A stretch of 64,000 bases of DNA, taken from assembly GCF_016859125.1 (NCBI RefSeq), contig NZ_CP069338.1:5519501-5583500 (forward strand), in the 5' to 3' direction. This stretch comes from Archangium violaceum (GTDB lineage: Bacteria > Myxococcota > Myxococcia > Myxococcales > Myxococcaceae). Each line of letters starts with the position of its first letter. Positions within the stretch are counted from its first letter, which is position 1. Under the pieces are notes generated by a model, which was not told the DNA's origin, searched no databases, and worked only from the letters and a program-made list of their open reading frames with translations. A program made the position numbers and the translations under genes. This document shows positions 7,985 through 19,085 of the stretch, one piece after another.

Positions 7985-8239
7985 CGGTACTCCGGACATC
8001 GCGCGGATGGGGGCCGCGTCGAGTGACAGACGGACGGACGGACAGGGGGTTATAGCCCGTCCCAGGCGTGGGTAGGACTTTCTGCCATCAGGAAACGGAG
8101 CCGGAGCACATGGAGGTATCAGCCCGGGTGATGCGTCCCCGTAGGGCCCGCCCCGTCGGCCACGCCCCGGGCAGGGGAGCCCCGGGTCTCATTGTCATTG
8201 GCGAGCGGCTCGCGGGTGGGCACGCTAGTTCCAGACCTT

Positions 8240-9139
8240 ATGGCTGATGAACTCGTCAGTGGATTGTTGAAGGAAACCGACCTGCGCGTGGTGCTCGTCA
8301 CCGCCACGGAGCTCGCCCGGAAGGCGCGCGAGCTGCACCGCTCCGCGACGGCCTCGGCCTCGCTCATGGCGCAGGGCCTCTCGGCGGGCGCCCTGCTCGC
8401 CTCCCTGCAGAAGAGCGACTCGCGGGTGAACCTCCAGCTCGAGTGCGACGGGCCGCTGCGGGGCCTCTTCGTGGACGCGGACACGGCGGGCGTGCTGCGC
8501 GGCTACGCCAAGAATCCCCTGGTGACGCACGTGGGCTCGGAGGGCGAGTACCACTGGCGTCCGGTGCTGGGGAACAAGGGCTACCTCTCCGTGCTGCGCG
8601 ACCTGGGCGGGGGCGAGTACTACCGCTCGGCGGTGGAGCTCGAGAGCTTCGAGCTGGCCGGGGACCTGGAGCGCTACTTCTCCATCTCCGACCAGCTGCC
8701 CACGCGCGTCTATCTCACCGTGTTGCCGACGCAGGCCAACGGCTCCGAGGAGCCGCTGGGCCTCGTGGCGGGCATGTTGCTGCAGCCGCTGCCCGACGGG
8801 GACCAGGACGCCTTCCGAGCGCTCGGCGACAGGCTGGCCCGGGACTTCGTACCCGCGGTGCGGGCGCATGCCGTCCATGGGACGACCGCGCTCCTCAAGG
8901 CGCTGGTGCCCCAGCCGGACCTGGAGGTGATGTCACGTTATCCGGTTTCCTTCACGTGCAGTTGCAGCAAGGACCGGGTGAAGCGGGCGCTGTTGTCCAT
9001 GGGCCGCGCGGAATTGGAGGACATCCTCGCCAAGGAAGGCCAGGCCGAGGCCGACTGCCACTTCTGCACCACGCATTACGTGGTCTCCGGGGAGGAGATC
9101 CGAGAAATCCTGAAGGGGATGGCCCAGGCCTCGAGCTGA
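8240..9139 (+). CDS. hslO: Hsp33 redox-regulated chaperonin
   Basis: A 299-residue Hsp33, a cytoplasmic holdase chaperone switched on by oxidative unfolding. The C-terminal zinc switch is complete: a C-x-C (TCSCSKDRV) and a C-x2-C (DCHFCTTHY) about 30 residues later. The N-terminal fold has the family phrases GLSAGALLASL, VNLQLECDGPLRGLFVDA and GYLSVLRDLGGGEYY. The start at 8240 (MADELVSGLL) fits the family N-terminus; an in-frame start 16 codons earlier is less likely. It begins a plus-strand run that continues through the phosphoribosyltransferase, selB and the two-component genes, and is divergent from sdhC. Confidence 0.95.
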   Translation: MADELVSGLLKETDLRVVLVTATELARKARELHRSATASASLMAQGLSAGALLASLQKSDSRVNLQLECDGPLRGLFVDADTAGVLRGYAKNPLVTHVGSEGEYHWRPVLGNKGYLSVLRDLGGGEYYRSAVELESFELAGDLERYFSISDQLPTRVYLTVLPTQANGSEEPLGLVAGMLLQPLPDGDQDAFRALGDRLARDFVPAVRAHAVHGTTALLKALVPQPDLEVMSRYPVSFTCSCSKDRVKRALLSMGRAELEDILAKEGQAEADCHFCTTHYVVSGEEIREILKGMAQASS

Positions 9140-9234: not shown

Positions 9235-9906
9235 GTGGCCACGAAGCGGGCAACGCCCAAGGCACCGCCCACCAAGGCACCACCCAAGGGCGCGAAGGGA
9301 ACGCCCTCCCAGAAGAAGCAGGTGGAGAAGCTCGTCTCCATCCCATCGGACGTGGTGCTCGCGCCCCAGGTGGAGGCGCCGCGTCACCTCACCGGGCGTG
9401 ACCAGTCGCGCTCGAAGACGAGCATCCAGGAACTGTCCTGGGCGGAGTTCGACAGGGCGGTGCAGATGCTCGCGCGCACCATCAGCCTGTCCTACAAGCC
9501 CCAGGCCGTGGTGGGCGTGGCGCACGGGGGCGTGTTCGTGGGTGGGGCGCTGTCCAGCGCGCTCGGCTGCGACTTCTTTCCGGTACGCATCAGCCGCCGC
9601 AGCCGGGACAAGGGCGCGTCCAAGCCGAAGCTGACCGGGGAGATGCCGCGCGAGCTCAAGGGCAAGCGCGTGCTCATCGTGGATGACGTCGTCTCCAGCG
9701 GCGACACGCTGGAATTGGCCACCGCCCTGGCCCGGAAGGTGGGAGCCCGGGAGGTGAATACCGCGGCGCTGGTGGCCCGTCCGGGGGGCTTCGCCCCGAG
9801 CTTCTGCGCGCTGCCCACCGATGCCCTCGTCGTGTTCCCATGGGACTACGAAGCCGTCACCGAGGACGGGCGCTTCGACGTGGACCCGGACAAGGCGGGG
9901 GCCTAG
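9235..9906 (+). CDS. Phosphoribosyltransferase family protein
   Basis: A 223-residue protein with a type I PRTase fold in residues ~70-200. The PRPP-binding loop is VLIVDDVVSSGDTLE, preceded by AVVGVAHGGVFVGGAL. It is closest in general form to xanthine/guanine-type enzymes, but the nucleobase is not predictable by eye. The first ~40 residues are a Lys/Pro/Ala-rich basic tail (ATPKAPPTKAPPKG) that looks disordered. The GTG at 9235 has GGAG eight bases upstream; an ATG at 9196 in frame lacks a ribosome site. It lies between hslO (95 bp) and selB (22 bp), likely co-transcribed. Confidence 0.85.
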   Translation: MATKRATPKAPPTKAPPKGAKGTPSQKKQVEKLVSIPSDVVLAPQVEAPRHLTGRDQSRSKTSIQELSWAEFDRAVQMLARTISLSYKPQAVVGVAHGGVFVGGALSSALGCDFFPVRISRRSRDKGASKPKLTGEMPRELKGKRVLIVDDVVSSGDTLELATALARKVGAREVNTAALVARPGGFAPSFCALPTDALVVFPWDYEAVTEDGRFDVDPDKAGA

Positions 9907-9928
9907 TCGAGGGAGAACCGGGGGCGAG

Positions 9929-11845
9929 ATGATCATTGGTACCGCTGGGCACATCGATCACGGCAAGACGTCACTGGTCAAGGCGCTCACCGGTATCGAC
10001 ACCGACAGGCTGAAGGAGGAGAAGCGTCGGGGAATCACTCTGGAGCTGGGCTTCGCGCACCTGGCGCTCGATGACGGCACGGTGGCGGGCGTGGTGGACG
10101 TGCCCGGGCACGAGCGCTTCGTCAAGGCGATGGTGGCGGGCGCTGGCGGGGTGGACCTGGCGGTGCTGGTGGTGGCCGCGGACGAGGGCGTGATGCCCCA
10201 GACGCGCGAGCACCTGGACATCTGCCGGTTGCTCGGCGTGAAGGCCGGCGTCATCGCCCTCACCAAGTCGGACCTGCTGGCGGAGCTGGGCGCCGAGTGG
10301 CGCGCGCTGGTGGAAGCGGACCTGGCCACGCTGGTGGGCGGCACCTTCCTGGAGGGCGCGCCGGTGGTCCCCGTCTCCTCGAGGACGGGGGAGGGGCTGC
10401 CCCAGCTGCGCGCCGCGCTCACCCGGGCCGCCCAGGGGCTGCCCTCGCGTCCCTCCGAGGGTCCGGCCTTCCTTCCCGTGGACAGGGCCTTCACCATCAA
10501 GGGGTTCGGCACGGTGGTGACGGGCACGCTGCTGTCCGGCACGTTGGCGGTGGAGGACGCCGTCTCCCTGCTGCCGGGCCTGCCGGGTCCCTTGCGCGTG
10601 CGAGGGCTGCAGATGCATGGCGAGCCGGTGCCGAAGGTGGCGGCGGGCCAGCGCACCGCCGTGAACCTGACGGGAGTGGAGCCCGAGGCCATCGCGCGCG
10701 GCATGGTGCTGGTGAAGGCCGGCGAGGTGCCCGAGACGTCCATGCTGGACGTGGAGTTGAGCCTGCTGCCCGCGGCCGAGGAGTCGCTTCCCCGGCGCCG
10801 CAAGCTGCTGCTGCACCTGGGCACCGCGCAGGTGGAGTGCACGGTGGCGTTGTTGGATTTGGAGAAGCTGGAGCCGGGTGAGACGGCGCTCGCGCAGCTG
10901 CGTCTCTCCGCGCCGATGGCGGCGCTGCCGGGCCAGCGCTTCATCCTCCGGGGCTCGCGCGCGCTGCCGGGCCGTGGCGCCACGCTGGCCGGTGGGCGCG
11001 TGCTGTCCATCACCCCACCGCGCCGCCGCAAGGGAGGTGCCGAGGTGGTGGCCCCTCTGCTGGAGGCGGGCCCGGAGGGGCAGGTGGCGTGGTTGCTGCG
11101 CCAGGCGGGCTACCGCGGTCTCACGCAACAGGAGCTCTTCGCCCGCTCGGCGCTGGTGCCCCGGGTGCTCTCCCGGGCGCTGGAGTTGCTCGGCGCGCGG
11201 GGCTCGGTGCTGCTGGTGGACCGGGAGCGGCGCCTCTACCTGTCGGGCGAGGTGTTCGAGGGGCTGCGGGCGCGTGCCCTGGCGCTGCTCGCGGCCTTCC
11301 ACGAGCGCGAGCCGCTGCGGGAGGGCCTGTCGCGGGAGGAGCTGCGCCAGCGTCTTTCCAGCGAGCTGGACGCGCGCGTCTTCGCCCGGGTGGTGCAGTC
11401 GCTGACGGACGGAGGGAAGGTGGAGGTGGAGAAGGAGGTGGTTCGCCTCAAGGGGCGTGGCCGCACGCTGTCGCTGGACGAGGACGCGGCGCGCACCCGG
11501 CTGGTGGCGGATCTCTCCGCGGCGGGGCTCGCGCCTCCCACCCTCAACGAGCTGGCCGAGCGGCTGCGGTTGCCGGCCACCCGGGTGCAGGAGTTGCTCA
11601 AGGTGGCGGTGGCGGAGGGCAGGGTGGTCCGGGTGAGCGAGGAGCTCTTCTTCGACGTGGGGGCGCTGGCCGGGCTGAAGGAGCGGCTGGTTGCCCACCT
11701 TCGCGAGAAGAAGGAGATTTCCACCCAGGCCTTCAAGGAAATGGTCGGGCAGAGCCGGAAGTTCGTCATTCCCCTCTCGGAGTACTTCGACCGCGAGAAG
11801 GTGACGCTGCGGGTCGGAGAGAAGCGGGTGCTGCGGCGCGCATGA
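9929..11845 (+). CDS. selB: Selenocysteine-specific translation elongation factor
   Basis: A 638-residue SelB, the GTPase that brings Sec-tRNA(Sec) to UGA codons with the help of a SECIS RNA element. The GTPase motifs are GHIDHGKTS (residues 7-15), DVPGHE and TKSD. Domains II-III of EF-Tu type follow. From ~residue 380 the protein has four winged-helix units (e.g. [37 protein letters not shown]), which bind SECIS. Length is normal for bacterial SelB. Its presence implies selenoprotein synthesis, but no selA, selC or selD is seen in the window. Its TGA overlaps the ATG of the histidine kinase, so the two are translationally coupled. Confidence 0.95.
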
Positions 11846-14349
11846 TGACGAAGCGTTACAGCGAGTCGGCCCTGCGGGCCCTCGTCGAGTCCTTCGGTAA
11901 CCCCATGTACGTGGCCCACGAGGGCCGGGTGCGTGTGGCGAACGAGGCCTACCTGGAGATGCTGGGGCTGGGTCGGGAGCAGGTGGAGGGCCGCTTCTTC
12001 CTGGACTTCGTTCGTCCGGAGGACCGGGCGCGCTTCGAGGTGCGCTACCGCCAACGCCAGGAGGGGACGCTGAAGGAGACGGGCCCCCAGCGCTACCTGC
12101 TGCCTCGGGTGGGCGGGGGGATGCTCGAGGTGGCGACCTACGTGCAGGAGGTGGAGCTGGAGGAGCGTGGCCGGGCCCAGCTCATCAACCTCCTGGTGCT
12201 GGGCGAGCGTCCGGCGGAGCTGGGGGTGGCCGAGCGCCTGGTGGAGACGTCCGCGGAGCTCGTCGCGGCGCGCTCGGAGGATGCGGTGCGGCGGGTGGCG
12301 CTGGCGGGCCTCGCGGGCGCCGGGCTCTCCGCGCGCTTCCTGGCGCGCGACGGGGAGCGTTTCATCGACCGGGACGGAGCGCCACCGCCGGAAGACGGGG
12401 AGCTGGGGCTGCGGGCGCTGTCCGAGGGCCGGCCCGTCTTCGGCGCCGTCCAGGGCCTGTCCACGCCCGTCTACCTCCCGTTGGGCACCACGCTGTCGGA
12501 GGTGCTGTGGGTGTCCGGGCCGGGGCTGTCTCCCTCGTACGGCTCGGTGCTGTCGCTCTTCGCCAAGGTGGTGGGAGCCGCCCTCACCGACGCGCGGCTG
12601 CTGGCGGACGTGGAGCGGGGCCGGTGGGAGATGGTGGCCGTGGCCGAGGCGGCGCGCTTCGTCGCCCAGCCGGAGCCTCCCTCTCCCGAGGACTTCCTCT
12701 CGCGTCTGGCCTCGTTGCTCGGCGCGGAGGCCGTGCTGCTGTACGCGCCCGAGTCGCCCGAGGGGGAGCTGGTCCTCACGGCGCAGGTGGGCCTGGACGG
12801 CGCGCTGAAGGACGTGCTCGCCGCGCAGCGGGGCGGCCTGTCGCCGTCCGTGATGGCGGCCCGGGGCGCGGTGCTCTCCAACGAGGCCGAGGAGCGCGCG
12901 CTGTTGGAGGCCACGGGCGGGCGCCTGGGCTGTGGCGTGGCGATCCGCCTGACGCATGGGGGCCATCCGCGAGGGTTCCTCCAGGTGCTGCGTCCGCCGG
13001 GGCGTCCCTTCGTCGGGGCGGACCTGCGGCTGCTGGGCACGTTGTCCGAGTTGCTGATGACGCTGTTGGATCAGCGGCGCCTGCGCATCGAGTCCGCCCG
13101 GCAGCTCTCCGACACGCGCCTGCTGTTGGACCTGGCCCGCACCACCACCGCCACGCTGGAGGTGGCCAGCATCCTGGACGTGGCCTCGGACTTCCTCGTC
13201 AAGCTGCTGGATGTCTCCAACTGCTTCATCCTGCTGCACGACGAGCACGCGGGCGTCCTGCGCGGCGCCGCCGCCTCCGTCACCCACCGCGACTTCTTCC
13301 GCGGCGTGGTGATTCCGGTGGACGATCCCATCAGCATCGCCGCGCGCGTGGCCCGCGAGCGACGGCCCGTCGCCATTCCGGACCTGTCGAAGGTCGCGGA
13401 GATGCAGGACCGGGAGCTCGTCCGCCGCTTCGAGGAAAAGGCCCTGCTGGGCCTGCCGCTCACCTCGCGCGAGGAGCTCATCGGCGTGGTGCTGCTGGAC
13501 GACACCCGCCGGCCGCGCGCCTTCACCCCCGCCTTCGTCGAGCTGGCCGAGGCCACGTGTGGGCAGATTGCCCTGGCCATCGCCAACGCCCGCCTCTACG
13601 AGTCGCTCTGGGCCTCCTACGCGGAGCTGGCCGCGGCCCGCGCGGAGATGGTCAAGCGCGAGCGCCTGGCCGCGCTCGGCGAGCTGTCCGCCATCGTCGC
13701 CCACGAGGTGCGCAATCCCCTGGGCGTCATCTTCAACGCGGTGGCCTCGCTGCGCCGCATGCTCAAGCCCGACGGCGACGCGGCCATGCTGCTGGACATC
13801 CTCGCGGAGGAGAGTGACCGGCTCAACCGCATGGTGGGGGATCTGCTGGACTACACCCGCCCGCGCGAACCCATTCTGCAGCATGAGGACGTGCCCCGCG
13901 TGCTGCAGGACGCGGTGGATGCCGCGCAGGCCCAGCAGGGCGGCACCCTCCGTATCTCCCTGTCCGCCGAGGTGGAGCCGGACCTGCCCCGCGTGCCGTT
14001 GGACCGACGCCTCATCCGCCAGGCGCTCGTCAACGTGCTGGTCAACTCCATCCAGGCCATGCCACAGGGCGGGGTGGTGCAGGTGCGCGCCCGCCGCGAG
14101 GCCCAGGGGAGCAGGGACGTGCTGCGCATCGACGTGGCGGACCAGGGCTGCGGCATCCCCACCGAGCTCGTGCACCGGGTCTTCGAGCCCTTCTTCACCA
14201 CCAAGGCCCAGGGCACGGGCCTGGGCCTCGCCGTGGTCAAGCGCATCATCGAGGAGCACCACGGGGAGATGACCCTGGAGAGTGCTCCGGGCCGTGGCAC
14301 CACCTTCACCTTCCGTCTACCCCTCACCCAGCCGACGAGTCTGCCGTGA
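11842..14349 (+). CDS. PAS-GAF-GAF sensor histidine kinase, PxrK-like
   Basis: An 835-residue soluble histidine kinase with no membrane segment. A PAS domain spans ~10-110 (MYVAHEGRVRVANEAYLEML). Two GAF-like regions follow (~120-415 in part, and ~420-590, clearest around LLLDLARTTTATLEVASILD). The HisKA dimerisation helix has H621 in IVAHEVRNPLG, and the HATPase domain has NVLVNSIQAM (N box), DQGCGIP (G1), FFTTKAQGTGLGLAV (G2/F) and GRGTTFTF. It starts at an ATG overlapping the selB stop and its own TGA overlaps the GTG of the NtrC-type regulator, so the pair is co-transcribed. Placed directly upstream of Pxr-type sRNA genes, it occupies the position reported for PxrK of Myxococcus xanthus; orthology is inferred from context. 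Confidence 0.85.
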   Translation: MMTKRYSESALRALVESFGNPMYVAHEGRVRVANEAYLEMLGLGREQVEGRFFLDFVRPEDRARFEVRYRQRQEGTLKETGPQRYLLPRVGGGMLEVATYVQEVELEERGRAQLINLLVLGERPAELGVAERLVETSAELVAARSEDAVRRVALAGLAGAGLSARFLARDGERFIDRDGAPPPEDGELGLRALSEGRPVFGAVQGLSTPVYLPLGTTLSEVLWVSGPGLSPSYGSVLSLFAKVVGAALTDARLLADVERGRWEMVAVAEAARFVAQPEPPSPEDFLSRLASLLGAEAVLLYAPESPEGELVLTAQVGLDGALKDVLAAQRGGLSPSVMAARGAVLSNEAEERALLEATGGRLGCGVAIRLTHGGHPRGFLQVLRPPGRPFVGADLRLLGTLSELLMTLLDQRRLRIESARQLSDTRLLLDLARTTTATLEVASILDVASDFLVKLLDVSNCFILLHDEHAGVLRGAAASVTHRDFFRGVVIPVDDPISIAARVARERRPVAIPDLSKVAEMQDRELVRRFEEKALLGLPLTSREELIGVVLLDDTRRPRAFTPAFVELAEATCGQIALAIANARLYESLWASYAELAAARAEMVKRERLAALGELSAIVAHEVRNPLGVIFNAVASLRRMLKPDGDAAMLLDILAEESDRLNRMVGDLLDYTRPREPILQHEDVPRVLQDAVDAAQAQQGGTLRISLSAEVEPDLPRVPLDRRLIRQALVNVLVNSIQAMPQGGVVQVRARREAQGSRDVLRIDVADQGCGIPTELVHRVFEPFFTTKAQGTGLGLAVVKRIIEEHHGEMTLESAPGRGTTFTFRLPLTQPTSLP

Positions 14350-15782
14350 ACGACGCATCCACTCCTCTCCCTCGCGGTCGCATCCTGGTCGTGGACGACC
14401 AGCGCAACATGCGAGCCACCACGGCGCTCCTCCTGCGTTCCGAGGGCTACTCCGTGTCCGAGTCCGCCAATGGCGAGGAAGCGCTCACGACCCTATCGGG
14501 CGGCGGCGTGGACCTGATGTTGACGGACCTGAAGATGGAGCCCATGGACGGGCTCACGCTCCTCAAGAAGGCCCTGGAGGTGGCGCCTCGCCTGCAGGTC
14601 ATCATGATGACGGCCTTCGGCTCCATCGAGAGCGCGGTGGAGGCCATGCGCCAGGGGGCGTTCGACTACGTCACCAAGCCCTTCAAGGAGGGCGAGCTGC
14701 GCTACCGGGTGGAGCGCGCGCTGGAGCGGGCCCGGCTGCAGGCGACGGTGGACATGCTCGCCGGCGAATTCAACGAGCGCCACGGCCTGAGCGCGCTGGT
14801 GGGTGGCAGTCCGGCCATGCGCGAGCTGACGTCGCGCCTGGTGCGCGTGGCGCAGAGCGACGCCACGGTGCTGGTGCAGGGCGAGAGCGGTACGGGCAAG
14901 GAGCTCGTCGCCCGCGCGGTGCACGCGCACAGCCGGCGCAAGGACAAGGCCTTCGTCCCCGTCAACTGCGCCGCCATCTCCGAGACGCTGCTGGAGAGCG
15001 AGCTGTTCGGCCACGCCAAGGGCGCCTTCACCGGCGCGGTGCGGGCCCGCCGCGGTCTCGTCGAGGAGGCGGACGGCGGCACCCTCTTCATCGACGAGGT
15101 GACGGAGACGACGCCCGCCTTCCAGTCCAAGCTGCTGCGCACGCTCCAGGACGGCGAGGTGCGGCGCGTGGGTGAGTCCACTCCCGTGAAGGTGGATGTG
15201 CGAATCGTCGCCGCCACCAACCGGGACATCGAGCTGGAGGTGCAGGAGAAGCGCTTCCGGCAGGATCTGTACTACCGGCTCAACGTGGTGACGTTGCGCG
15301 TGCCGCCCCTGCGCGAGCGCCTGGAGGACGTGCCGGCCCTGGCCAAGCACTTCCTCGAGCGCGCCAACGCGCGCAGCCCGAATCCCAAGCGCCTGTCGGC
15401 GGCGGCGGTGGAGCACCTGATGGGCTACAGCTTCCCCGGCAACGTGCGCGAGCTGGAGAACCTGGTGGAGCAGGCGGCGGCCCTGGCCGAGGGCGAGGAG
15501 CTGTTGCCCGAGGACTTCCCCCTGCGCCCCAGCGCTCGCGTGGCGGCCAGTGGCTCCCTGGGGGCTCCACCCGCTCCCTCCAACACCGACACCAGCACGC
15601 AGATACCCACACTGGCCGAAGCGGTGGAGGAGGCCGAGCGTCGGGCGATTGCCCAGGCCCTGGAGCGGCACGGCATGGACCTGGGCCGCGTCGCCGAGGA
15701 GCTGGGCGTTTCCTCGACCACGCTGTGGCGGAAGATGAAGCGTCTCAACCTCCGTCCGCTCGGGGGCGAGCACCGGGACTGA
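14346..15782 (+). CDS. NtrC-family sigma-54 response regulator, PxrR-like
   Basis: A 478-residue regulator with three domains. The receiver (1-~125) has acidic D17/D18, phospho-acceptor D61 (LMLTDLKM), T and K111 (VTKPF). The AAA+ domain (~148-385) has Walker A GESGTGKE (179-186), the sigma-54-contacting GAFTGA loop (226-231), Walker B GGTLFIDEV and the R-finger region. A Fis-type helix-turn-helix ends the protein (AQALERHGMDLGRVAEELGV, ~435-466). The GTG start overlaps the kinase stop. It should bind palindromes upstream of -24/-12 promoters, and five such arrangements lie directly downstream. It therefore very probably activates the sRNA array behind it, as PxrR does for pxr in M. xanthus. 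The name is an inference from context. Confidence 0.88.
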   Translation: MNDASTPLPRGRILVVDDQRNMRATTALLLRSEGYSVSESANGEEALTTLSGGGVDLMLTDLKMEPMDGLTLLKKALEVAPRLQVIMMTAFGSIESAVEAMRQGAFDYVTKPFKEGELRYRVERALERARLQATVDMLAGEFNERHGLSALVGGSPAMRELTSRLVRVAQSDATVLVQGESGTGKELVARAVHAHSRRKDKAFVPVNCAAISETLLESELFGHAKGAFTGAVRARRGLVEEADGGTLFIDEVTETTPAFQSKLLRTLQDGEVRRVGESTPVKVDVRIVAATNRDIELEVQEKRFRQDLYYRLNVVTLRVPPLRERLEDVPALAKHFLERANARSPNPKRLSAAAVEHLMGYSFPGNVRELENLVEQAAALAEGEELLPEDFPLRPSARVAASGSLGAPPAPSNTDTSTQIPTLAEAVEEAERRAIAQALERHGMDLGRVAEELGVSSTTLWRKMKRLNLRPLGGEHRD

Positions 15783-15879
15783 GGTTGTACGGGGGCTGTC
15801 GATTGAGGAACACCCCGCCAGGAATGCAATGTGGATTCAGCCGTGAAAAGCAGAAGCGCCTGAAATGATTGCGGATTTT

Positions 15880-16002
15880 CACATCTGCAAGGAGATTGCA
15901 GGGCTGCAATGCACGGATGAGCGGCCCCCGGGGGCACCCGAATGCTAAGTGCCTGAATTTACTGCTCTCTGAGACTCGTGGCGCGGTGGCATGGGGAGTG
16001 CT
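15880..16002 (+). promoter_or_regulatory. Activator site and sigma-54 promoter of sRNA copy A
   Basis: The -24/-12 element TGGCATGGGGAGTGCT lies at 15987-16002, with GG (15988-89) and GC (16000-01) exactly 10 bp apart. About 75-105 bp upstream is a degenerate activator pair: CACATCTGCAAG (15880-15891) and CTGCAATGCA (15904-15913). Predicted transcription start is ~16013. Confidence 0.75.
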
Positions 16003-16012
16003 AAGGCTTACA

Positions 16013-16137
16013 CCCGGAGCGCATCGACGTGGCGATGAAGGCGGTTCCCCCCCACCCCTTCAGCGCCTCCGGTGAGCTTAATTTAGAAGAACCCGCGGCC
16101 CGGTCCCTTCCTGAGGGTACCGGGCCGCCTTCTTTTT
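16013..16137 (+). ncRNA. Pxr-like small RNA, copy A
   Basis: The predicted RNA is ~125 nt, from 12 bp after the -12 GC to the T-run of its terminator. It has a 5' segment CGGAGCGCATCGACGTGG, a stem-loop (TGAAGG with CCTTCA) whose loop carries GGTTCCCCCCCACC (16043-16056), a short linker, and a rho-independent terminator. It is the most diverged of the five copies: both the 5' segment and the linker differ from B-E, but the C-rich loop is identical. It is the copy next to the NtrC-type gene, so it may be the ancestral one. Identification as Pxr-like rests on gene context, size, sigma-54 control and shape; no alignment was run. Confidence 0.72.
16095..16137 (+). terminator. Terminator of sRNA copy A
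   Basis: GCGGCCCGG (16095 on) pairs with CCGGGCCGC, and inner CCCT with AGGG, then CTTCTTTTT. It is a strong rho-independent terminator and forms the third stem of the RNA. Confidence 0.85.
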
Positions 16138-16184
16138 GGGCCCTGGGTTTCGCCAGCTTCCGCTGTGGCTGGAGAATGCGGCGG

Positions 16185-16310
16185 TTTGCAGATCTGCAAG
16201 CGGATTTCAATGCTGCAATGCAGGGCTGAAACCGTGAGGAGGGCGCCGGGAGCCAAGTGCCCGGAAACACGAGGCAATTGGGGCGAGGGTGGGCTGGCAT
16301 GGCGAGTGCT
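16185..16310 (+). promoter_or_regulatory. Activator site and sigma-54 promoter of sRNA copy B
   Basis: TGGCATGGCGAGTGCT at 16295-16310 has GG (16296-97) and GC (16308-09) 10 bp apart. Upstream are the perfect palindrome TTGCAGATCTGCAA (16186-16199) and CTGCAATGCAG (16213-16223), a likely pair of activator sites 70-110 bp from the promoter. Predicted start ~16321. Confidence 0.78.
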
Positions 16311-16320
16311 AAAGCATGGA

Positions 16321-16445
16321 GTCGGAGCACGTCGAAGTGAGGCTGAAGGAGGTTCCCCCCCACCGCCTTCAGCACTTCCGGTGAGCTTCCTGAGAAGAAC
16401 CCGAGGCCCGGTCCCCTTTCTGAGGGTACCGGGCTTCCTTCTTTT
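16321..16445 (+). ncRNA. Pxr-like small RNA, copy B
   Basis: The predicted RNA is ~125 nt. It starts near GTCGGAGCACGTCGAAGTGA, forms the stem GCTGAAGG-GG / CC-CCTTCAGC (one A/G mismatch) around the invariant loop GGTTCCCCCCCACC, then has the linker CACTTCCGGTGAGC and a terminator at 16403-16445 (GAGGCCCGGT pairing with ACCGGGCTTC). Its sequence is repeated without a difference that I can see as copy D, 613 bp downstream. A 164-residue reading frame crosses this unit, but it has no family character and breaks the RNA logic. Confidence 0.72.
16403..16445 (+). terminator. Terminator of sRNA copy B
   Basis: GAGGCCCGGT pairs with ACCGGGCTTC (one G-U), with inner CCC/GGG, followed by CTTCTTTT. 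Confidence 0.8.
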
Positions 16446-16493
16446 CGGGCCCTGGGCTCCGCTGGCTTCCGGTAGGGCTGGAGAATGCGGCGG

Positions 16494-16629
16494 TTTGCAG
16501 ATCTGCAAGGGGATTTCAGGGCTGCAATGCAGGGCTGAAAGCAGCCAGGTCCGTTGGACGTGGCCAGCGCGCCAGGTGCTTGAAATCACGGCACTTTCAG
16601 GGGCAGGCCGGGCTGGCATGGCGGGTGCT
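16494..16629 (+). promoter_or_regulatory. Activator site and sigma-54 promoter of sRNA copy C
   Basis: TGGCATGGCGGGTGCT at 16614-16629 has GG (16615-16) and GC (16627-28) 10 bp apart. The palindrome TTGCAGATCTGCAA lies at 16495-16508 and CTGCAATGCAG at 16522-16532, 80-120 bp upstream. Predicted start ~16640. Confidence 0.78.
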
Positions 16630-16639
16630 AAAGGATGGT

Positions 16640-16763
16640 CTCGGAGCACGTCGAAGTGAGGCTGAAGAAGGTTCCCCCCCACCTTCTTCAGCACTTCCGG
16701 TGGGCTTTTGAGAAGACCTGCGGCCCGGTGTCCTTCCTGAGGATGCCGGGCCGCCTTCTTTTT
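16640..16763 (+). ncRNA. Pxr-like small RNA, copy C
   Basis: The predicted RNA is ~124 nt. The 5' part is CTCGGAGCACGTCGAAGTGA. The main hairpin is a perfect 11-bp stem, GCTGAAGAAGG with CCTTCTTCAGC, enclosing the C-rich loop. The linker is CACTTCCGGTGGGC and the terminator 16720-16763. Compared with copy B, both stem arms change together (AGGAGG to AGAAGG on one side, CCGCCTT to CCTTCTT on the other), so pairing is kept. That covariation supports a folded RNA rather than coding DNA. It is identical to copy E. Confidence 0.75.
16720..16763 (+). terminator. Terminator of sRNA copy C
   Basis: GCGGCCCGG pairs with CCGGGCCGC, and inner TCCT with AGGA, followed by CTTCTTTTT. Confidence 0.85.
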
Positions 16764-16787
16764 GGGCCCCGGGCTTCGCGCTCGCCT

Positions 16788-16923
16788 CTTCAGATCTGCA
16801 AGCGGATTTCAATGCTGCAATGCAGGGCTGAAACCGTGAAGAGGGCCCCGGGAGGGCCCCGGGAGCCAGGTGCCCGGAAACACGAGGCAATTGGGGCGAG
16901 GGTGGGCTGGCATGGCGAGTGCT
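16788..16923 (+). promoter_or_regulatory. Activator site and sigma-54 promoter of sRNA copy D
   Basis: TGGCATGGCGAGTGCT at 16908-16923 has GG (16909-10) and GC (16921-22) 10 bp apart. The upstream palindrome is damaged: its left arm reads CTTCAG instead of TTTGCAG (16788-16802), while CTGCAATGCAG at 16815-16825 is intact. This is where the duplication junction falls, so copy D may respond less well to the activator. Confidence 0.72.
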
Positions 16924-16933
16924 AAAGCATGGA

Positions 16934-17058
16934 GTCGGAGCACGTCGAAGTGAGGCTGAAGGAGGTTCCCCCCCACCGCCTTCAGCACTTCCGGTGAGCT
17001 TCCTGAGAAGAACCCGAGGCCCGGTCCCCTTTCTGAGGGTACCGGGCTTCCTTCTTTT
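16934..17058 (+). ncRNA. Pxr-like small RNA, copy D
   Basis: The predicted RNA is ~125 nt, and I can see no difference from copy B within the transcribed part. Its upstream region differs by the altered palindrome arm and an 11-bp local duplication (GGGCCCCGGGA repeated near 16843-16863). The terminator is at 17016-17058. Because the RNA equals copy B, any separate role would have to come from dosage or promoter strength. Confidence 0.72.
17016..17058 (+). terminator. Terminator of sRNA copy D
   Basis: Same sequence as the copy B terminator: GAGGCCCGGT with ACCGGGCTTC, then CTTCTTTT. Confidence 0.8.
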
Positions 17059-17106
17059 CGGGCCCTGGGCTCCGCTGGCTTCCGGTAGGGCTGGAGAATG
17101 CGGCGG

Positions 17107-17242
17107 TTTGCAGATCTGCAAGGGGATTTCAGGGCTGCAATGCAGGGCTGAAAGCAGCCAGGTCCGTTGGACGTGGCCAGCGCGCCAGGTGCTTGAAATC
17201 ACGGCACTTTCAGGGGCAGGCCGGGCTGGCATGGCGGGTGCT
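17107..17242 (+). promoter_or_regulatory. Activator site and sigma-54 promoter of sRNA copy E
   Basis: TGGCATGGCGGGTGCT at 17227-17242 has GG (17228-29) and GC (17240-41) 10 bp apart. The intact palindrome TTGCAGATCTGCAA is at 17108-17121 and CTGCAATGCAG at 17135-17145. Predicted start ~17253. Confidence 0.78.
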
Positions 17243-17252
17243 AAAGGATGGT

Positions 17253-17376
17253 CTCGGAGCACGTCGAAGTGAGGCTGAAGAAGGTTCCCCCCCACCTTCT
17301 TCAGCACTTCCGGTGGGCTTTTGAGAAGACCTGCGGCCCGGTGTCCTTCCTGAGGATGCCGGGCCGCCTTCTTTTT
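17253..17376 (+). ncRNA. Pxr-like small RNA, copy E
   Basis: The predicted RNA is ~124 nt, identical by eye to copy C including its promoter, hairpin and terminator (17333-17376). After it the repeat stops within ~25 bp, and the sequence changes to a GC-rich run of CGCG/GCGAG words (17400-17460) with no gene, before the terminator of the nuo operon. Confidence 0.75.
17333..17376 (+). terminator. Terminator of sRNA copy E
   Basis: GCGGCCCGG with CCGGGCCGC, inner TCCT with AGGA, then CTTCTTTTT; same as copy C. Confidence 0.85.
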
Positions 17377-17469
17377 GGGGCCCCGGGCTTCGCGCTCGTG
17401 GATTCAGCGCGCGGGAGCTGCGCGAGCGGGAGCCGCGGGCAAGCGCGAAGCTCGAGCCCACGAAACGAA

Positions 17470-17498
17470 AACGCCCGGGCGGAAGCCGCCCGGGCGTT
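17470..17498 (-). terminator. Terminator of the nuo operon
   Basis: AACGCCCGGGCGG and CCGCCCGGGCGTT form a perfect 13-bp stem around a 3-nt loop. Read on the minus strand it follows nuoN by 24 bp and is followed by TTTCGTTTCG. Confidence 0.85.
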
Positions 17499-17522
17499 GG
17501 TGAATCCGGAAGCGTGGGTGCT

Positions 17523-19085
17523 TCAGCGGCTGAGCAGCGTGCCGGCCTGGGCGATCCACTCGGCCACGGGGCCGGGGACGATGCCGAGCACCACCACGGC
17601 GACGGTGGAGACCACCAGGGCGAACTCGGTCATCCAGTTGCGCTCCAGGATGTTCGCGCCCTCGGGCACGGGCCGCATGTACATGTAGACGACCACGCGC
17701 AGGTAGTAATAGGCGCCGGCCGCGCTGGCGAGCACCGCGACGATGGTGAGGCCGACGAGGCCCGCGTCGACGGCGGCGCGGAAGAGGATGAGCTTGCCGA
17801 GGAAGCCGACAGTGGGCGGAATGCCGGCCAGCGACAGCATGAAGGCCGCCATGGCGAAGGCCCAACCCGGGCGACGCTGCGCCAGGCCGCTGAAGCGCTC
17901 CAGGTCCCACGCGGTGCCCTTCTCCTCGTCCTCGCGGCGCTCCAGCATGGAGATGATGCCGAAGGCGCCCACCGCGGTGACGGTGTAGGCGAGCAGGTAG
18001 AAGAGGATGCCGCGCAGGGCCTCGACGCGGGCCATGGCCTCGGGGCTGGCGCCGACCAGCGCGGTGGCGCCGAGCAGCTTGAACTCCTGGCCCGGCTGCA
18101 CCACGAAGAGGGCCGCCACGCCCAGCAGCAGGTAGCCGGCGTGGGCGATGGAGGAGTAGGCCAGCATGCGCTTCACGTTGCGCTGCGGGAGGGCCAGCAG
18201 GTTGCCACCCACCATGGTGAGCAGCGCCAGGGTGGAGAAGATGACGAAGGGCAGCTTGGCGTTGATGCCGCTGCCCACGGTGACGAACACGCGCACCATG
18301 GCGACGAAGGCGGCGGCCTTCACGCCCGCGCTCATGAGCGCGGTGACGGGGGTGGGCGCGCCCTCGTACACGTCCGGCGTCCACATGTGGAAGGGCACCG
18401 CGGCCACCTTGAAGGCGAAGCCGGCGGCCACCAGCACCGCGCCCGTGTAGACGAGCGCCGAGCGGTTGTCGCCCATCGCGTTGCGCAGCGGCTGCACCAT
18501 CTCCGACAGCAGCGTCGTGCCGGTGGCCCCGTACAGCAGCGCCGAGCCGTAGAGCAGCACCGCCGAGGAGAAGGCACCGAGGATGAAGTACTTGAAGCCG
18601 GCCTCGCTCGGCCGCGTGCCGCGCCGCAGGTAGGACGTCAGCGCGTACGTGGCGATGGAGAGCACCTCGACGTTGACGAAGAGGGTGATGAGCTCGTTGG
18701 ACAGTCCCAGCAGGCTCATGCCCGCGCCCGAGAAGAGCATCAGCGCGTAGAACTCACCGCGCTCGGCTCCGCGCGTACGCAGGAAGCCGGCCGCGGTGAG
18801 CGACGCCAGCGCCAGCGCCACGCAGACGATGAACGTCAGGAAGCTGGAGAAGGGATCCAGCGCCCCGAAGCCGAGGAACACCTCGCGGGCCGGCTCGGTG
18901 AGCAGCGACAGCGACACGATGCCGGCGATGACGGACGTGGCGGTGGACAGCACCGCCTGGTAGCCGCGCGACGCGTGGGCGGAGAGGAATACCTCCGAAA
19001 TCAGCAGGGTGCACGCGCCCACCACCAGGATGATGGCGGGGATGAGCGGGAGGAAGTCTGCCGAGGTGAGGTTGGGCAGGTTCAT
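17523..19085 (-). CDS. nuoN: NADH-quinone oxidoreductase subunit N
   Basis: A 520-residue, 14-helix antiporter-like subunit of respiratory complex I, one of the three proton-pumping membrane subunits. The family phrases are ILGAFSSAVLLYGSALLYG, GFAFKVAAVPFHMWTPDVYEGAPTPV (containing the pumping Lys and the antiporter signature) and MLAYSSIAHAGYLLLG. Length is usual. It is the last gene of the minus-strand nuo run, 16 bp after nuoM, and is followed by a strong terminator. Confidence 0.95.
   Translation of the reverse strand: MNLPNLTSADFLPLIPAIILVVGACTLLISEVFLSAHASRGYQAVLSTATSVIAGIVSLSLLTEPAREVFLGFGALDPFSSFLTFIVCVALALASLTAAGFLRTRGAERGEFYALMLFSGAGMSLLGLSNELITLFVNVEVLSIATYALTSYLRRGTRPSEAGFKYFILGAFSSAVLLYGSALLYGATGTTLLSEMVQPLRNAMGDNRSALVYTGAVLVAAGFAFKVAAVPFHMWTPDVYEGAPTPVTALMSAGVKAAAFVAMVRVFVTVGSGINAKLPFVIFSTLALLTMVGGNLLALPQRNVKRMLAYSSIAHAGYLLLGVAALFVVQPGQEFKLLGATALVGASPEAMARVEALRGILFYLLAYTVTAVGAFGIISMLERREDEEKGTAWDLERFSGLAQRRPGWAFAMAAFMLSLAGIPPTVGFLGKLILFRAAVDAGLVGLTIVAVLASAAGAYYYLRVVVYMYMRPVPEGANILERNWMTEFALVVSTVAVVVLGIVPGPVAEWIAQAGTLLSR

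Follow-up and report, generated by a model that had tools for sequence, protein, structure and literature searches.

Immediately downstream of a two-component gene pair, the window (i.e., the whole 64 kb stretch of DNA that was analyzed) contains five tandem pxr units, which are followed by a convergent gene that we take, from family features, to encode a NADH-quinone oxidoreductase subunit N-like protein. The coordinates of these features are presented in Table 1. The first gene of the pair encodes a histidine kinase sharing 64% identity with the pxr-locus kinase of M. xanthus AM003, and the second an NtrC-type activator that is 80% identical to PxrR at the same locus. Given these identities and the Pfam domains, the pxrK-pxrR-pxr order proposed in the initial annotation is upheld. 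Further upstream, inspection of the translations by eye shows a resemblance to Hsp33 (8192-9139) and to the selenocysteine elongation factor SelB (9821-11845).

When the Rfam Pxr model (RF01812) was applied to the window, it matched exactly five times, between positions 16027 and 17375, with all scores (80.4-90.6 bits, E = 1e-12 to 1e-14) above the gathering score of 80. Pxr was the only Rfam family matched. Over the whole chromosome (12.68 Mb), both this model and one built here returned the same five matches only. All five transcript starts initially proposed coincide with the +1 implied by the sigma-54 promoters, and each unit folds strongly and, as had been claimed, closes with a terminator, here the SL3/terminator hairpin followed by a T tail. 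The five-gene Pxr array is hence confirmed as real, and its expression and function in the host are predicted from sequence. Long open reading frames across the array were rejected as artefacts of GC-rich repeats.

Table 1. Features of the pxr locus, in window coordinates.
Feature	Position	Strand	Details
pxrK orthologue	11842..14349	+	PAS-GAF-HisKA-HATPase histidine kinase, 835 aa (Pfam domains)
pxrR (nla19/spdR) orthologue	14346..15782	+	receiver, sigma-54 activator, Fis HTH, 478 aa (Pfam)
Operator pair, unit 1	15877..15909	+	TTTCACATCTGCAA + TTGCAGGGCTGCAA
Sigma-54 promoter, unit 1	15987..16003	+	GG at 15988, GC at 16000
Predicted transcript, unit 1	16013..16136	+	P1 strands 16017-16026 / 16070-16079
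RF01812 match, unit 1	16027-16136	+	80.4 bits
Operator sites, unit 2	16186..16231	+	
Source block, units 2 and 3	16189..16784	+	99.4% identical to next block over 543 columns
Sigma-54 promoter, unit 2	16295..16311	+	
Predicted transcript, unit 2	16321..16445	+	P1 strands 16324-16334 / 16379-16389
RF01812 match, unit 2	16335-16445	+	90.6 bits
Operator sites, unit 3	16495..16540	+	
Sigma-54 promoter, unit 3	16614..16630	+	
Predicted transcript, unit 3	16640..16762	+	P1 3' strand 16698-16705
RF01812 match, unit 3	16654-16762	+	81.5 bits
Operator sites, unit 4	16788..16833	+	first site altered (CTTCAG)
Duplicate block, units 4 and 5	16791..17398	+	few substitutions, 11-nt insertion and one extra G relative to source
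Sigma-54 promoter, unit 4	16908..16924	+	
Predicted transcript, unit 4	16934..17058	+	sequence of unit 2
RF01812 match, unit 4	16948-17058	+	90.6 bits
Operator sites, unit 5	17108..17153	+	
Sigma-54 promoter, unit 5	17227..17243	+	
Predicted transcript, unit 5	17253..17375	+	sequence of unit 3
RF01812 match, unit 5	17267-17375	+	81.5 bits
Probable terminator	17470..17498	.	13-bp perfect inverted repeat between array and convergent nuoN
NADH-quinone oxidoreductase subunit N-like gene (presumed)	17523..19085	-	ORF, downstream, convergent

Promoters and operators

The pattern TGGCAY-N6-TGCTA, searched for with up to one mismatch, has five matches in the window against a chance mean of 0.9; all are exact, and each lies upstream of a pxr unit. 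The +1 was placed 12 nt after the C of the -12 element. One -24/-12 promoter per unit with GG-N10-GC spacing had been claimed, and the spacing is exact in all five. The claim of an activator palindrome per unit stands in part: an operator does lie upstream of each unit, yet it consists of two TTKCA-N4-TGMAA sites and a degenerate third rather than of a single palindrome. Fifteen of the sixteen window matches to TTKCA-N4-TGMAA fall inside the array (chance mean of 1.3).

The two-site composite operator, with up to three mismatches allowed, occurs in the whole host genome at the five pxr promoters only. With up to two mismatches, it is found in nine of ten relatives, always at pxr promoters, while the reversed control yielded zero matches in the relatives' genomes. 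In the tenth relative (G037), the sites are 3 bases apart instead of 4. Given that the composite operator was found at pxr promoters only, the motif searches indicate PxrR-type control via a paired-site arrangement dedicated to pxr, with single sites possible elsewhere. M. xanthus cannot synthesize Pxr without PxrR, and its Pxr-S holds development back until the onset of starvation (PMC10217877). Orthology with M. xanthus makes it most likely that, in growing cells of the host, Pxr comes from five promoters under a single regulator; control by PxrR, processing and the block of development would carry over from the M. xanthus work.

A conserved element, CAAGTGCCTGRAA..ACTGG, was also observed between the operators and the promoter, some 85 nt before each Pxr body begins (e.g., 15946-15966 and 16256-16270). 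It is found in the array units and in Myxococcus relatives, and may be a candidate site for a second factor.

The P1 stem and the structure of full-length Pxr

The sigma-54 +1 lies 13-14 nt upstream of the annotated Pxr start. When the full predicted transcript was folded, this leader paired with the region drawn as SL2 in the published three-stem-loop model, forming a stem hereafter called P1. Ensemble folding presents at least five P1 pairs in 91 of 93 units, with a mean of 10.8; cutting off the leader abolished these pairs, and SL2 formed. In an alignment-free swap test on 26 divergent members, native leader/partner combinations reached -15.3 kcal/mol, compared with -10.0 kcal/mol for swapped ones (z = -9.9, 0 of 5000 permutations), and restricting the test to one member per genus (21 members) yielded z = -8.4 with 0 of 20000 permutations. 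When a 12-nt window was slid along the sequence, the signal peaked at +0 from the predicted +1, was absent at +10 and from -15 to -35, and was weak (z of -1.2 to -1.7) from -40 to -50.

In a sequence-only alignment, P1 is paired in 93.2% of cells, compared with 33-50% in slid controls. P1 shows strong covariation, with two-sided changes in seven of nine pairs, and RNAalifold recovers P1 unaided. The published SL2 is paired in 64% family-wide, with slid controls reaching up to 72%, and no covariation support was found for it family-wide. Its pairs break in the window units; given SL2 also fails in accepted family members, this counts against the model element, not against Pxr membership. The RF01812 model draws SL2 and is without leader and P1. 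When held-out covariance models with and without P1 were compared on 27 distant members, the P1 model scored higher in 21 (by 0-6 bits) and lower in six, which supports P1 modestly.

From the comparative sequence evidence we conclude that full-length Pxr is a two-domain RNA, consisting of P1+SL1 and SL3, whose 5' end coincides with the sigma-54 +1 or lies close to it. P1 is new with respect to the published and Rfam models, in a comparison whose literature lacked the founding 2010, 2014 and 2016 papers. It corrects the working structure of Pxr and offers a concrete hypothesis for the step from Pxr-L to Pxr-S. While the stem itself is well supported, the following is conjecture, and we regard it as rather improbable: P1 would be a processing-controlled switch, in which loss of the 13-nt leader or opening of P1 frees the strand for SL2 and converts inactive Pxr-L into active Pxr-S. 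The unit types would be variants adjusted in the strength of P1 and in turnover, and the content of the array would thereby set the nutrient threshold for fruiting.

P1 also bears on the published cross-species allele tests. Two of four Cystobacter paralogue alleles tested in M. xanthus accumulated poorly and did not block development, and these tests fused the M. xanthus leader to foreign Pxr bodies (PMC5568312). Given this design, a P1 mismatch is a possible contributor to the poor accumulation. A chimera test used units from A. violaceum Cb vi76 and from other Archangium in place of the Cystobacter alleles. Joined to the M. xanthus leader, bodies of the first and third types lost approximately 1-4 kcal/mol, and those of the second type mostly lost nothing. 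The effect is small, and these folding energies do no more than hint that P1 loss explains the failure of Cystobacter alleles Cb.1 and Cb.3.

Copy number, duplication history and the probable role of the array

Pxr was found in 93 of 96 genomes of the GTDB family and in none of 49 genomes of other families in the order, a distribution that agrees with the published single origin. Genomes of the host's genus, Archangium, have 5, 4, 5, 4, 2 (in an assembly broken inside the array) and 4 copies, and those of the Cystobacter-like genus g6 have 4, 2, 5 and 5. A sixth Rfam match in the last of these (G034, 38 bits) was rejected as a pxr copy, since it is a bare terminator hairpin without the loop. 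Most genomes of genus g3 have two tandem copies, and nearly all others have one. As the initial annotation had stated for M. xanthus, pxr is single in the Myxococcus genomes surveyed; the novelty this implied for a tandem array is overstated, given three tandem paralogues are already in print.

The broken assembly is that of A. violaceum Cb vi76, whose break falls within the array (end of L138, start of L139), which suggests that copy numbers from fragmented genomes are likely undercounts. All single-contig or near-complete Archangium and Cystobacter-like genomes have four to five copies. Hence, multi-copy pxr is a trait of the clade rather than a peculiarity of the host. Two further observations concern the survey. 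In a metagenome-assembled relative (G080), three contigs (L160, L161 and L149) together carry four diverged pxr copies: a tandem pair, and two copies of a second type whose stems differ. A sequence labeled Comamonas sp. KCTC 72670 (L047) contains a myxobacterial pxrR and pxr, spaced as in M. xanthus; its label or assembly is probably wrong.

In Cystobacter minor and C. violaceus, three tandem pxr paralogues were described, each with its own sigma-54 promoter and each functionally tested, and pxr was located between nla19 and a NADH dehydrogenase gene (PMC5568312). The array presented here has the same placement as those of Cystobacter (now Archangium) minor Cbm6 and violaceus Cbvi34, and likewise consists of tandem copies with their own promoters, in which first and later types are distinguishable and the first-position type is shared within the clade. 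It differs in having five copies, arranged 1+2+2, with a recent block duplication. Tandem pxr arrays are thus a known kind, of which the five-copy form is a further member. We came across no description of a four- or five-copy array in the literature searched, a scope that lacked the 2014/2016 papers on pxr evolution and pxrK/pxrR. What is new, on sequence comparison, is that four- to five-copy arrays are usual in Archangium and Cystobacter-like genomes, apparently with an orthologous first unit and the rest homogenized per genome. Along with the P1 stem and the exclusivity of the operator, this clade-wide copy-number series is among the most useful new results. With M. xanthus pxr the array shares the family, the two-component genes upstream, the type of sigma-54 promoter and operator, and the C7 loop, whereas the copy number is one there and five here, and the Pxr bodies of the array are 16-20% divergent from Myxococcus-type Pxr (G062).

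Units 4-5 arose by a recent duplication of units 2-3. Transcript 4 has exactly the sequence of transcript 2, and transcript 5 that of transcript 3, so that the array encodes three distinct RNAs (1, 2=4 and 3=5) in the 1+2+2 arrangement rather than five independent variants. Near-identical blocks could also result from an assembly artefact of the repeat, but we regard this as extremely improbable: the blocks differ in their junction sequences, in an 11-nt insertion and in a few substitutions, which makes a simple assembly duplication unlikely; independent single-contig relatives have four to five copies with other boundaries; and fragmented assemblies drop copies rather than add them, as in Cb vi76. 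A tree of the units joins the first ones from Archangium and Cystobacter-like genomes in a single clade (support 99/91); later units group mostly within their own genome or close relatives, as expected if repeated duplication and homogenization shaped the later units.

Operators, -24/-12 elements, part of the leader, the SL1 loop and SL3 are kept in first and later units, while the spacers diverge. The C7 loop of SL1 (UUCCCCCCCA) is invariant, and the segment GGUUCCCCCCCACC is identical in all 36 aligned units, paralogues included. The conserved core and terminator of SL3 are paired in all units, with a compensatory C-G to A-U change in units 2 and 4. Replacing one C of the SL1 loop by A, or deleting the loop, abolishes Pxr function in M. 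xanthus but not accumulation, for which SL3 is required (PMC5684412).

These observations are best explained by a five-gene Pxr array with its own two-component system, quite likely acting as a dosage-amplified checkpoint whose paralogues have diverged mildly. The parts of this explanation read from the sequence are the family, the promoters and operators, how the array was duplicated, P1 and the constraint on the loop. When active, PxrK-PxrR would occupy the paired TTKCA-N4-TGMAA sites ahead of every unit and, together with sigma-54 polymerase, drive synthesis of five RNAs of approximately 124 nt, of three types, during growth. Each would fold into a P1-closed hairpin presenting the C7 loop, plus the SL3 terminator/stability hairpin. 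The loop would repress targets needed to start fruiting-body development, and starvation would lift this repression. Carrying five copies would increase the dosage of Pxr, and the divergent types may not be equally stable or processed alike. Dosage is favored by the identical copies, with a putative benefit. Pxr is a model for one small RNA gating multicellular development, and two to five copies under one dedicated regulator form a natural dosage series within the clade.

The initial annotation had offered either dosage control or a family of related RNAs, and both are plausible, the sequence bearing signs of each in the identical pairs 2=4 and 3=5 and in the three distinct types. Types 1, 2 and 3 are mutually 13-18% different in the Pxr body. 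Together with the orthology of the first-position type and the functional differences among paralogues in M. xanthus (PMC5568312), this could reflect a subfunctionalized family like Vibrio Qrr, in which the types have different targets, stability or timing and the identical copies are by-products. We consider this possible though less likely than dosage: the SL1 loop, essential to function in M. xanthus, is the same in all types, whose differences are confined to stems, linkers and SL3, and within-genome homogenization of the second and later copies opposes specialization. If anything, the types would thus differ in stability or processing while sharing targets.

The Vibrio Qrr system comprises several related small RNAs, each with sigma-54 and one NtrC-type regulator (LuxO), which are dispersed and Hfq-dependent. 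The likeness to the array is in circuit only, given the two are not homologous as far as known and the window has no Qrr match. Four or five Qrr copies act redundantly or additively (cited in PMC5568312), and the myxobacterial genomes sequenced yielded no detectable Hfq homologue (PMC5568312).

The failure of two Cystobacter alleles suggests that not every copy need be functional, and unequal crossing-over could by itself sustain a high copy number even if dosage brought no benefit. Under such a neutral process, copies would accumulate and be homogenized and only one or two would matter, in line with the recent 600-bp block duplication, the range of two to five copies among related genomes and the inactivity of some paralogues in M. 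xanthus (PMC5568312). We find this unlikely, since every array unit examined has retained the promoter GG/GC and the C7 loop despite divergent adjoining spacers, and since four to five copies persist in all single-contig or near-complete genomes of the two genera. The dosage-amplified checkpoint hence remains the preferred reading.

A search of ten genomes for the complement of the C7 loop near start codons (TGGGGGGGAA-N0-14-ATG) yielded 37 matches, compared with three for the reversed pattern, an excess probably due to ordinary G-rich ribosome-binding sites. Given only one gene recurs (in two genomes) among the 30 loci translated, no conserved Pxr target was found in this search. The recurring gene is a nucleotide-cyclase-like ORF in two Archangium-group genomes (L178 and L192), with TGGGGGGGAAGGAG, complementary to the C7 loop, just before its start; as a candidate Pxr target, it is a weak lead.
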